DNA from: Bacteroidales bacterium
Lineage (GTDB): Bacteria > Bacteroidota > Bacteroidia > Bacteroidales > GWA2-32-17
DNA: 56,568 bases
Assembly (NCBI GenBank): GCA_013314715.1
Contig: JABUFC010000019.1
Span: 1 to 56,568 of the forward strand
Direction: 5' to 3'
Within the stretch, counting starts at the first letter, position 1. Each line of letters opens with the position of its first letter. The notes under the pieces are model-generated. The model was not told the DNA's origin, made no database searches, and saw only the letters and a program-made list of their open reading frames with translations. Positions 52,019-52,884 of the stretch are shown piece after piece. A program made the translations under genes and the position numbers.

Positions 52019-52042
52019 ATATACGACGAATTCTTGTTTCAT
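52019..52042 (-). pseudogene. Truncated third GIY-YIG copy (first 8 codons)
   Basis: Minus-strand ATG at 52042-52040 begins the same MKQEFVVY as the two full genes, then the sequence changes at 52018 into unrelated DNA next to the TonB-receptor gene. This marks the left edge of the element. Confidence 0.8.
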
Positions 52043-52106
52043 AAAAAAAGCTGCCCTTTACAGACAGCCTCAAGTTTTAGTAGCGGGGGTAGGGATCGAA
52101 CCCACG

Positions 52107-52136
52107 TTCTTCTGATTCCGTTATGAATCAGAAGAA
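52107..52136 (-). repeat. 12-bp hairpin replacing the anticodon-stem 3' half in tRNA fragment, unit 1
   Basis: TTCTTCTGATTC (52107-52118) and GAATCAGAAGAA (52125-52136) are perfect inverted repeats with a 6-nt loop. The loop contains the stop codon of the unit-1 GIY-YIG ORF. On the tRNA side it lies between GGGCTCATA and ACGTGGG of the initiator tRNA sequence. Confidence 0.85.
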
Positions 52137-52408
52137 TATGAGCCCGACGTCTGTAAAAAATCATGTATGATTTTAATTTTAGCATAATGCCCACTTCCAG
52201 ATTTAAAATACCGTTCTTTTTTTCTAGCTTTTTCTTTATCTTGAAAGAACTCAACCCAGACAACGATCCATGGTCTGTATTTTTGTGTCCATCCATGTCC
52301 GCGTTCATTGTGCGATTTAAACCGCTCAATAAGGTTATTTGTAATTCCGACGTATGTTTTTTTGTTTTTAACAGAGTATAAAATATATACGACGAATTCT
52401 TGTTTCAT
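52121..52408 (-). CDS. GIY-YIG endonuclease, unit 1
   Basis: 95 residues, identical in protein to the second copy. The GIY-YIG nuclease domain is almost complete: VYILYS (GIY position), TYVGIT (YIG), RFKSHN with Arg, and KKERYFKSG with the catalytic Glu. It resembles the UPF0213/YhbQ-like single-domain nucleases. The last residues (TSGSYSSDS) are encoded by tRNA anticodon-arm sequence and the hairpin, so the stop codon lies inside the tRNA fragment. Its ATG directly follows the T-run of a tRNA-type terminator. A role as a nuclease that cuts tRNA-fMet genes is inferred, not shown. Confidence 0.8.
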   Translation of the reverse strand: MKQEFVVYILYSVKNKKTYVGITNNLIERFKSHNERGHGWTQKYRPWIVVWVEFFQDKEKARKKERYFKSGSGHYAKIKIIHDFLQTSGSYSSDS

Positions 52409-52472
52409 AAAAAAAGCTGCCTTTTACAGACAGCCTCAAGTTTTAGTAGCGGGGGTAGGGATCGAACCTACG

Positions 52473-52502
52473 TTCTTCTGATTCCGTTATGAATCAGAAG
52501 AA
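52473..52502 (-). repeat. 12-bp hairpin replacing the anticodon-stem 3' half in tRNA fragment, unit 2
   Basis: Same 12-bp perfect inverted repeat as at 52107-52136, exactly 366 bp further on. Confidence 0.85.
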
Positions 52503-52774
52503 TATGAGCCCGACGTCTGTAAAAAATCATGTATGATTTTAATTTTAGCATAATGCCCACTTCCAGATTTAAAATACCGTTCTTTTTTTCTAGCTTTTTC
52601 TTTATCTTGAAAGAACTCAACCCAGACAACGATCCATGGTCTGTATTTTTGTGTCCATCCATGTCCGCGTTCATTGTGCGATTTAAACCGCTCAATAAGG
52701 TTATTTGTAATTCCGACGTATGTTTTTTTGTTTTTAACAGAGTATAAAATATATACGACGAATTCTTGTTTCAT
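52487..52774 (-). CDS. GIY-YIG endonuclease, unit 2
   Basis: 95 residues, identical to the unit-1 protein, with the same VYILYS / TYVGIT / ERYFKSG catalytic signature. It is the copy closest to the intact tRNA-fMet gene and is transcribed in the same direction. The terminator between them (52775-52800) ends in seven T residues immediately followed by this ATG, so expression needs read-through or a separate start. Two identical adjacent copies point to very recent duplication or ongoing homogenisation. Confidence 0.8.
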   Translation of the reverse strand: MKQEFVVYILYSVKNKKTYVGITNNLIERFKSHNERGHGWTQKYRPWIVVWVEFFQDKEKARKKERYFKSGSGHYAKIKIIHDFLQTSGSYSSDS

Positions 52775-52800
52775 AAAAAAAGCTGCCTTTTACAGACAGC
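52775..52800 (-). terminator. Terminator of tRNA-fMet, abutting the GIY-YIG start codon
   Basis: Minus strand: GCTGTC (52800-52795) pairs with GGCAGC (52787-52782), one G-U pair, loop TGTAAAA, then seven T residues (52781-52775) directly followed by ATG. Copies at about 52409-52434 and 52043-52068 belong to the repeats. Confidence 0.8.
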
Positions 52801-52812
52801 CTCAAGTTTTAG

Positions 52813-52884
52813 TAGCGGGGGTAGGGATCGAACCTACGACCTTCGGGTTATGAGCCCGACGAGCTACCACTGCTCCACCCCGCA
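52813..52884 (-). tRNA. Initiator tRNA-fMet (CAT)
   Basis: Minus strand, 72 nt. Acceptor stem pairs 2-7 are intact (GCGGGG with CCCCGC), D arm GAGC/GCTC, anticodon arm TCGGG-CTCATAA-CCCGA with the three G-C pairs diagnostic of the initiator, variable AGGTC, T arm GTAGG-TTCGATC-CCTAC, and A73. Positions 1 and 72 are T and T, so the 1:72 pair is open, as required for formylation (E. coli has C-A). CCA is not encoded. It is the only complete tRNA in the window. Confidence 0.95.

Follow-up and report, generated by a model that had tools for sequence, protein, structure and literature searches.

A candidate one-gene mobile element of Bacteroidota that joins a small GIY-YIG nuclease to displaced parts of tRNA genes

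In a 56,568-nucleotide (nt) contig of a Bacteroidales bacterium (JABUFC010000019.1, hereafter the window; its genome is designated G000), an intact initiator tRNA-fMet gene is followed by a tandem array in which a short gene for a GIY-YIG nuclease alternates with palindrome-bearing fragments of the same tRNA gene. Comparison with related loci leads us to regard these units as probably a selfish mobile element, minimal in size, that lives as a parasite on tRNA genes and would multiply by nuclease-driven copying anchored in tRNA sequence. The reading draws on the anatomy of the loci, the fidelity of nuclease clades to particular tRNAs, orthologous empty sites, a strand rule, an enrichment of palindromes, purifying selection on the nuclease gene and a recurrent pattern of truncation. 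An earlier note on this DNA had already proposed a minimal element with the initiator tRNA gene as its target, and this proposal appears well supported by clade–tRNA fidelity, tRNA fragments and orthologous empty sites; its impression that the array is unusual did not survive, the arrangement being common in this group.

Read on the minus strand, the intact tRNA and its terminator are followed by two units (52774–52409 and 52408–52043), each of exactly 366 bp, with two differences between them, both A to G; the earlier note's account of the array proved correct base by base, although the number of units depends on a draft assembly of 100 contigs. Each unit comprises, in order, an ATG-started open reading frame (ORF) of 95 residues, the sequence CGTCGGGCTCATA, a hairpin-forming palindrome with perfect 12-bp arms, 27 nt of T arm and tRNA 3′ end, and a terminator, much as the note had it. 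The stop codon of the nuclease (TAA) does indeed lie inside the 6-nt hairpin loop, and that tRNA-derived sequence encodes the nuclease C-terminus follows from the geometry of the locus. Relative to the intact tRNA-fMet, the broken copy lacks tRNA positions (t) 1–23 and 37–46, with the palindrome in the place of t37–46. The extent given earlier, 52019–52884, takes in a 24-nt remnant of a third ORF that was absent from the accompanying description. The features are as follows.

52812–52884, minus strand: intact initiator tRNA-fMet (ARAGORN anticodon CAT; Rfam RF00005, 66.8 bits), the putative target, kept or rebuilt
52775–52811, minus strand: terminator-like stem with T-run after the intact tRNA, recurring after each broken tRNA (read from the sequence)
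52487–52774, minus strand: GIY-YIG nuclease ORF, copy 1, 95 residues (PF01541; Y8, Y19, R29, H33 and E65 retained)
52446–52515, minus strand: broken tRNA-fMet, copy 1 (t24–36, a 30-nt palindrome, t47–73)
52473–52502, minus strand: palindrome 1, with 12-bp perfect arms and a 6-nt loop holding the ORF stop codon
52409–52445, minus strand: terminator copy after broken tRNA 1 (read from the sequence)
52121–52408, minus strand: GIY-YIG nuclease ORF, copy 2, its protein identical to that of copy 1
52080–52149, minus strand: broken tRNA-fMet, copy 2, with its palindrome at 52136–52107
52043–52079, minus strand: terminator copy after broken tRNA 2 (read from the sequence)
52019–52042, minus strand: 24 nt from the start of a third ORF, an exact remnant that forms the array's distal edge; similar start-retaining stubs occur in other arrays
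52955–53485, minus strand: gene for a SpoU-type RNA methylase, conserved on the 5′ side of tRNA-fMet and a marker of orthologous empty sites

This structure is not a product of chance, since a 300-nt stretch recurs at 99% identity within the locus and the same structure is present in a second species of the genus (G003) and in many other genomes. The array is flanked by the SpoU methylase gene and a TonB receptor gene. Two more loci of G000 (L035 and L036, on contigs C5 and C14) lie at a tRNA-Asp gene, with two ORFs 345 bp apart, and at an anticodon-CAT tRNA gene.

Matches to the nuclease were found in 39 of 99 genomes (the window's own included) at an E-value of 1e-3 and, among 393 genomes of the order, in 68 at 1e-9. 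From the places listed in both searches, 215 matches were reduced to 151 distinct ORFs by dropping copies whose sequence and 100-bp flanks were already present, identical tandem copies among them. For 120 of the 151, a tRNA, a tRNA fragment or a transfer-messenger RNA (tmRNA) is found no more than 400 bp away: 90 have an intact tRNA or tmRNA gene within that distance (median 50 bp) and 30 a fragment only, the others having nothing nearby (28, mostly from other clades) or lying at contig edges (3). With some 40 tRNA genes in a 3.5-Mb genome, chance would place about 1% of ORFs near a tRNA, a rough figure based on general values for gene number and genome size. Within 400 bp, ORF and tRNA agree in strand at all 99 intact genes and all 289 fragments. 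On this comparison the arrangement is widespread and the window is one case of it.

A scan of named genomes with a profile of the initiator clade, selected for that clade by its peptide patterns, gave 320 relatives, the best 80 of which represent 79 distinct loci; the window protein alone, used as a query against genome contigs, had found no relative. The titles of the 79 loci name Bacteroidota groups, Balneolaceae, Balneolales, Cloacimonadota, KSB1, Ignavibacteria and Kryptoniota. An intact tRNA-fMet lies 5′ of the nuclease within 251 bp at 57 of them, a tRNA-Met of another type at seven and a tRNA-Asn at two (in one assembly); tRNA-fMet lies 3′ at one, tRNA fragments only are present at nine and two are at contig edges. 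The earlier note had held that relatives of the nuclease gene without tRNA fragments would tell against an element that targets tRNA genes, and within this set just one locus answers that description (L197, which has only 379 bp of contig upstream).

The association extends to particular tRNAs. We placed 137 nuclease domains (those below 60 residues and identical ones being left out) on a quick tree of 70 columns with many open forks, labelled by script from the nearest tRNA; some labels are wrong (broken Val copies marked as Cys, for example, and L010 given a Glu-side geometry). On this tree tRNA amino-acid identity changes 35 times over 107 labelled rows, against a minimum of 64 in 300 shuffles, palindrome type changes 14 times over 61 rows (null minimum 26) and geometry 11 times over 107 rows (null minimum 15). 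Nuclease clades thus follow tRNA identity, and palindrome type also follows clade. Units at other tRNA loci fit this pattern: relatives of the window nuclease stay with tRNA-fMet across phyla and sister clades stay with other tRNAs.

Two geometries can be distinguished. At most loci the intact tRNA lies 5′ of the ORF and the broken copy, which retains the 3′ part of the tRNA, lies 3′ of it. The nearest intact gene lies 3′ for 19 of 90 ORFs; 14 of the 19 tree rows that carry the label for this geometry are tRNA-Arg, and eight other Arg rows carry the opposite label, at least one of them wrongly. At loci of the tRNA-Arg type, tRNA bases 1–21 or 1–22, usually with the palindrome CCTGCCTGCCGGCAGGCAGG, precede the ORF. 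Either arrangement would fit an element that inserted into a tRNA gene and brought the displaced part with it.

A perfect palindrome (arms of 6 bp or more, loop of 8 nt or less) is present in 127 of 145 broken-tRNA regions, where dinucleotide shuffling predicts 22.6; among 242 control windows, 27 hold one. The regions are not independent of each other because related loci recur. In the initiator set, 64 of the 69 loci with a broken tRNA carry a palindrome, which in 60 (counted from rows) is TCCGCC..GGCGGA with a variable loop. Dawidia soli has a complete broken tRNA-fMet in which this palindrome stands in for about ten bases from the anticodon arm and the variable region. The window genus departs from this: G000 and G003 both have TTCTTCT arms, placed identically in the tRNA, with inner pairs that differ. 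Since spare tRNA copies usually bear a palindrome as their scar, the hairpin seen in the window is no incidental feature.

That the palindromes are unique to tRNA loci was considered and rejected, the same types being dispersed away from tRNAs. TCCGCC..GGCGGA occurs 72, 9, 46, 23, 23 and 31 times in the six genomes whose nuclease lies beside such a palindrome, against a median of 1 in other nuclease-positive genomes (p = 4e-4), the six TCCGCC-linked genomes, like ten TCCCG-linked ones, having been chosen by hand. TCCCGA palindromes are commoner in nuclease-positive genomes (median 7 versus 1.5, p = 8e-8; reversed-pattern control, p = 0.12), and the CCTGCC palindrome is found in nine of 99 genomes, eight of them nuclease-positive (p = 0.002). 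A functional pairing of nuclease and palindrome is suggested and no more, because the counts include the elements' own copies and the genomes are not independent.

Several further palindrome loci were noted. L187, L189, L191 and L195 of G000 are occurrences of a dispersed repeat, about 350 bp long, that bears TCCCGAGAAATCGGGA; the three longer contexts also contain TTCTTCT..AGAAGAA palindromes, with arms as in the tRNA scar of the window. Tandem broken tRNAs with palindromes and no ORF lie upstream of an intact tRNA at L039 (G094; five 77-bp units), L103 (G060), L033 (G022) and L256 (Pedobacter sp. BS3); such arrays look like non-autonomous derivatives. In G001, on the opposite strand beside the empty tRNA-fMet, three broken copies with TCCCGATT..AATCGGGA-like palindromes precede an anticodon-CAT tRNA (L058), with no ORF in the stretch printed. 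An identification of the broken tRNA as tmRNA was rejected, the match being weak (9.5 bits).

The window protein (copy 1) matches PF01541 with an E-value of 2.6e-17 (63.3 bits; cut-off 22.6) and has both the fold and the Y, Y, R, H and E residues of the GIY-YIG superfamily, Y19 being conserved in at least 90% of the alignment. AlphaFold2 predicts a GIY-YIG domain with high confidence (predicted local distance difference test score 91.8). The closest solved folds in Foldseek are Slx1 (E 5.6e-4) and UPF0213 (E 1.1e-3), with I-TevI distant (E 2.2), and phmmer likewise returns an Slx1 homologue (E 6.6e-4); by fold, by sequence and as a single domain without additions, the protein falls in the Slx1-like/UPF0213 branch. 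Matches to phage endonuclease families are weak (PHROG, best 3.1e-5; NCBIfam TIGR01453, below cut-off). Searches of plasmids and phages gave no protein match, and the phage DNA matches listed (20 places, of 114 records) are confined to a tRNA stretch, the first 78 bases of the query or about 9% of its length. Among 57 pairs of equal length and 75–99% identity, clades without tRNA included, the 23 with finite synonymous divergence (dS) have a median ratio of nonsynonymous to synonymous divergence (dN/dS) of 0.10, which points to strong purifying selection on the nuclease gene; between the window and G003 copies dS is saturated, the two being too diverged for this measure. Slx1 acts on branched DNA, according to the titles of the matched structure entries, and by analogy such an activity would suit a hairpin or cruciform formed by the palindrome.

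Empty sites were found in both the genus and the family. The SpoU gene precedes tRNA-fMet in G000, G001, G002, G003, G007 and G008, of which only G000 and G003 have the element, leaving orthologous empty sites in G001, G002, G007 and G008. In adjoining its presumed target and having empty orthologous alleles, the nuclease gene behaves as a homing gene does; a target destroyed or changed by the insertion, another mark of such genes, was not seen at the window locus, where an intact tRNA remains. For the genus of G033, the same locus is occupied in G400 and G318, and a clean empty allele was not found; G318 has a tRNA-Val 3′ fragment 3 kb from the intact tRNA, adjoining the gene that follows the array in G033.

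The far edge of the element was compared at 76 loci (89 less nine at contig edges and four ending in a full ORF). Nothing common is present past the tRNA end at 37, terminator or leader only at 21, and at 18 the common sequence continues 4–152 nt into the nuclease domain. The distal terminator is not always the host's own; this was rejected as a rule and kept as one outcome of a mixed picture, in which terminator identity has a median of 0.69 at 87 distal ends (25 below 0.6) and of 1.0 at 35 internal ones, unrelated pairs giving 0.54. In 25 arrays with an upstream tRNA, and in three more where the tRNA was not seen, a truncated later copy retains the ORF start. The shortest of these stubs are a few codons long and that of L222 (34%) may be unrelated, but identity to the best copy reaches 90% or more in 18 of the 25, and for this reason the stubs look to have been truncated when they were made.

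The process that we envisage would begin with a unit of about 350 bp consisting of one small Slx1-like GIY-YIG gene and the tRNA part displaced by its insertion, namely the 3′ part with terminator at most tRNAs and the 5′ end at many tRNA-Arg loci. By virtue of the part it carries, the element would rebuild an intact tRNA at one edge and leave a broken copy at the other, interrupted or partly replaced by a short palindrome at a clade-fixed position. The nuclease would break DNA at the tRNA gene, at the palindrome (as hairpin or cruciform) or at both; repair would start in tRNA homology, copy outward through terminator and ORF and end at variable points, with capture of the second end in the tRNA giving a clean edge and failed capture an ORF stub. 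Repeats of tRNA sequence would then permit both array growth and clean loss, and the expected outcome would be that empty tRNA genes are colonised, that tandem arrays form and that ORF stubs with the start retained mark their far end. In this scheme we infer the insertion itself, the cutting and where it falls, passage between cells and what the palindrome does.

A number of points weigh against it. The intact tRNA of the carrier is identical to that of the empty site in G001 (100% over 76 nt), so that its escape from cutting poses a puzzle; the flanking terminator differs between the two, which leaves room for a wider target site. Close relatives can share both element and site (G000 and G003; G033 and G400), as they would under vertical descent, and between G000 and G003 the nuclease is 60% identical, less than the neighbouring SpoU gene (68%). 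The 37 loci of 76 with no common sequence past the tRNA end also fit old, diverged duplications. Partial copies without the ORF start occur in L139 and L250 (both short) and in L266 (larger), plus four at contig ends. Counts of TCCCG-type palindromes do not separate the linked genomes from other nuclease-positive ones (p = 0.07), and the 28 ORFs of 151 without a nearby tRNA must be set on the same side.

The arrays might have arisen with the nuclease uninvolved, had its gene long ago come to lie after tRNA genes and been multiplied by unequal crossing-over between tRNA copies. The repeats of the window share 64 bp (tRNA 3′ end and terminator) usable by ordinary recombination, and related species still have orthologous arrays at the corresponding site. 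Such passive duplication is nonetheless unlikely in view of the match between nuclease clade and tRNA identity, which holds over many families and phyla, with patchy presence, of the recurrence across phyla of one palindrome type at a given tRNA region, and of a dN/dS of about 0.1 in what would be a bystander gene. Rather less doubtful, if still not what we expect, is that the element is real and the palindromes are unrelated small repeats, comparable to the Rickettsia palindromic elements, that gather harmlessly in dead tRNA copies. TCCCGA copies number 75 in G049 and 20 in G000, with tRNA similarity in two of 16 contexts, and TTCTTCT arms occur at 13 places in G000 beyond the window (a hand count of listed places), against one for the reversed-pattern control. 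Unrelated repeats would not, however, be expected in 127 of 145 broken-tRNA regions with a type that follows clade, nor to keep their hairpin at the same site in G000 and G003 while the inner pairs differ.

Strong purifying selection, the common direction of transcription of ORF and tRNA and the stable hairpin in the broken tRNA (z −4.9) would all suit a nuclease and tRNA-like copy that act at the RNA level, in tRNA maturation, quality control or phage defence, and so help the host. Set against this are the patchy distribution (at E 1e-9, 68 of the order's 393 genomes), the lack of the element in close relatives, arrays whose truncated copies resemble recombination debris, and PADLOC matches that are weak only (best E 6e-4, PDC-S14), and we think a host function improbable. 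Scarcely credible is an assembly artefact in the window: the assembly is a draft, but the units differ at two bases and are followed by a third stub, and equivalent arrays exist in two single-contig assemblies (G221 and G318) and in drafts of named strains (L198, L201, L208 and L270).

If a selfish element is indeed at work, prokaryotic single-domain Slx1-like GIY-YIG proteins would include many selfish elements aimed at highly conserved genes, and an essential RNA gene would be invaded without an intron, by bringing the missing part. It would also offer collections of small nucleases matched in nature to short palindromes, and would account for the short nuclease genes and stray tRNA pieces found near Bacteroidota tRNAs. 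More tentatively, and with somewhat more doubt than confidence, we raise the possibility of a new class of prokaryotic mobile element, a one-gene parasite of tRNA genes that has spread over Bacteroidota and nearby phyla. Its Slx1-like nuclease would act together with a palindrome of its own, every clade would be bound to a single tRNA, and the tRNA that the element breaks would be rebuilt. With the target rebuilt each time, the same gene could be re-entered and arrays could build up, and the ORF-less arrays of palindromes and tRNA would be non-autonomous derivatives.

Some loci depart from the common pattern. At L041 (G075) and L100 (G083) the nuclease lies 3′ of a tmRNA rather than a tRNA, L041 having three tandem nuclease copies, whose later members match the first at 90 and 62% identity. 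A GIY-YIG ORF from a tRNA-less clade is likewise tandemly duplicated, with a spacing of 706 bp, at L044 (G036). At L025 a related domain lies within a long ORF that, by reading only, resembles HsdR of a type I restriction enzyme; a GIY-YIG insertion in HsdR has been described in Methylococcus (PMC1564403).

A literature search, with subscription papers and preprints outside its scope, did not find the arrangement described, and it is best compared with systems that share parts of it. Integrative elements use tRNA 3′ ends as sites and restore the 3′ end, and such islands carry many genes; the 366-bp unit is, in contrast, too short for an integrase of the usual size, and none was found, the longest ORFs of the unit being of 95–96 residues and the GIY-YIG one alone having been scanned. 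Elements of the atp6 type in Allomyces mitochondria bring a new gene end together with an endonuclease, so that there too the insertion carries a replacement for the displaced part of a host gene; theirs is a protein gene rather than a tRNA and, to our knowledge, palindromes and arrays are lacking. The Ssn family reportedly comprises GIY-YIG site-specific single-strand nucleases associated with the dispersed NTS repeat of Neisseria. Both systems have a small GIY-YIG protein and a dispersed short repeat, the link here being co-occurrence only (TCCGCC, p = 4e-4; TCCCG, p = 0.07), whereas Ssn is said to have neither a link to tRNA genes nor tandem nuclease–tRNA units. tRNA-fMet is known as a group I intron site; in the window, no Rfam intron matched up to an E-value of 1 between 51500 and 53500, and the tRNA gene is uninterrupted, with no sign of an intron or intein. 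Where bacterial tRNA genes harbour group I introns with homing endonucleases (PMC3984707), a nuclease likewise lies at a tRNA whose function is preserved, there by splicing and here presumably by a replacement part.

Closest to the protein itself, by fold and by sequence, are the standalone Slx1-like/UPF0213 proteins, which are also minimal and of a single domain; the part of PMC1564403 used here describes no association of theirs with tRNA genes. It does describe GIY-YIG domains as mobile and raises the question whether further members of the superfamily are molecular parasites, a question on which the present element, if real, would bear. In Erythrobacter an Slx1-like GIY-YIG domain is fused to a TrmH-like SPOUT methylase (PMC1564403); the window array adjoins a gene for a SpoU-type methylase. 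For the arrays the nearest parallel is SegB of T-even phages, a GIY-YIG nuclease encoded beside tRNA genes, whose breaks drive tandem amplification of tRNA and nuclease genes; the amplified copies carry a C-terminally truncated nuclease, the tRNA 5′ end shares microhomology with the segB 3′ end and SegB is reported to amplify distant genes in trans (PMC13096335). SegB differs in acting in a phage rather than a chromosome and in favouring no tRNA isotype, whereas here clades keep to one, and palindrome-broken tRNA copies are not among the features described in the part of that paper used here. By analogy, SegB would provide a working precedent for the array step, and the element described here can be seen as a variant of the mobile endonuclease elements with a fair chance of forming a class of its own.
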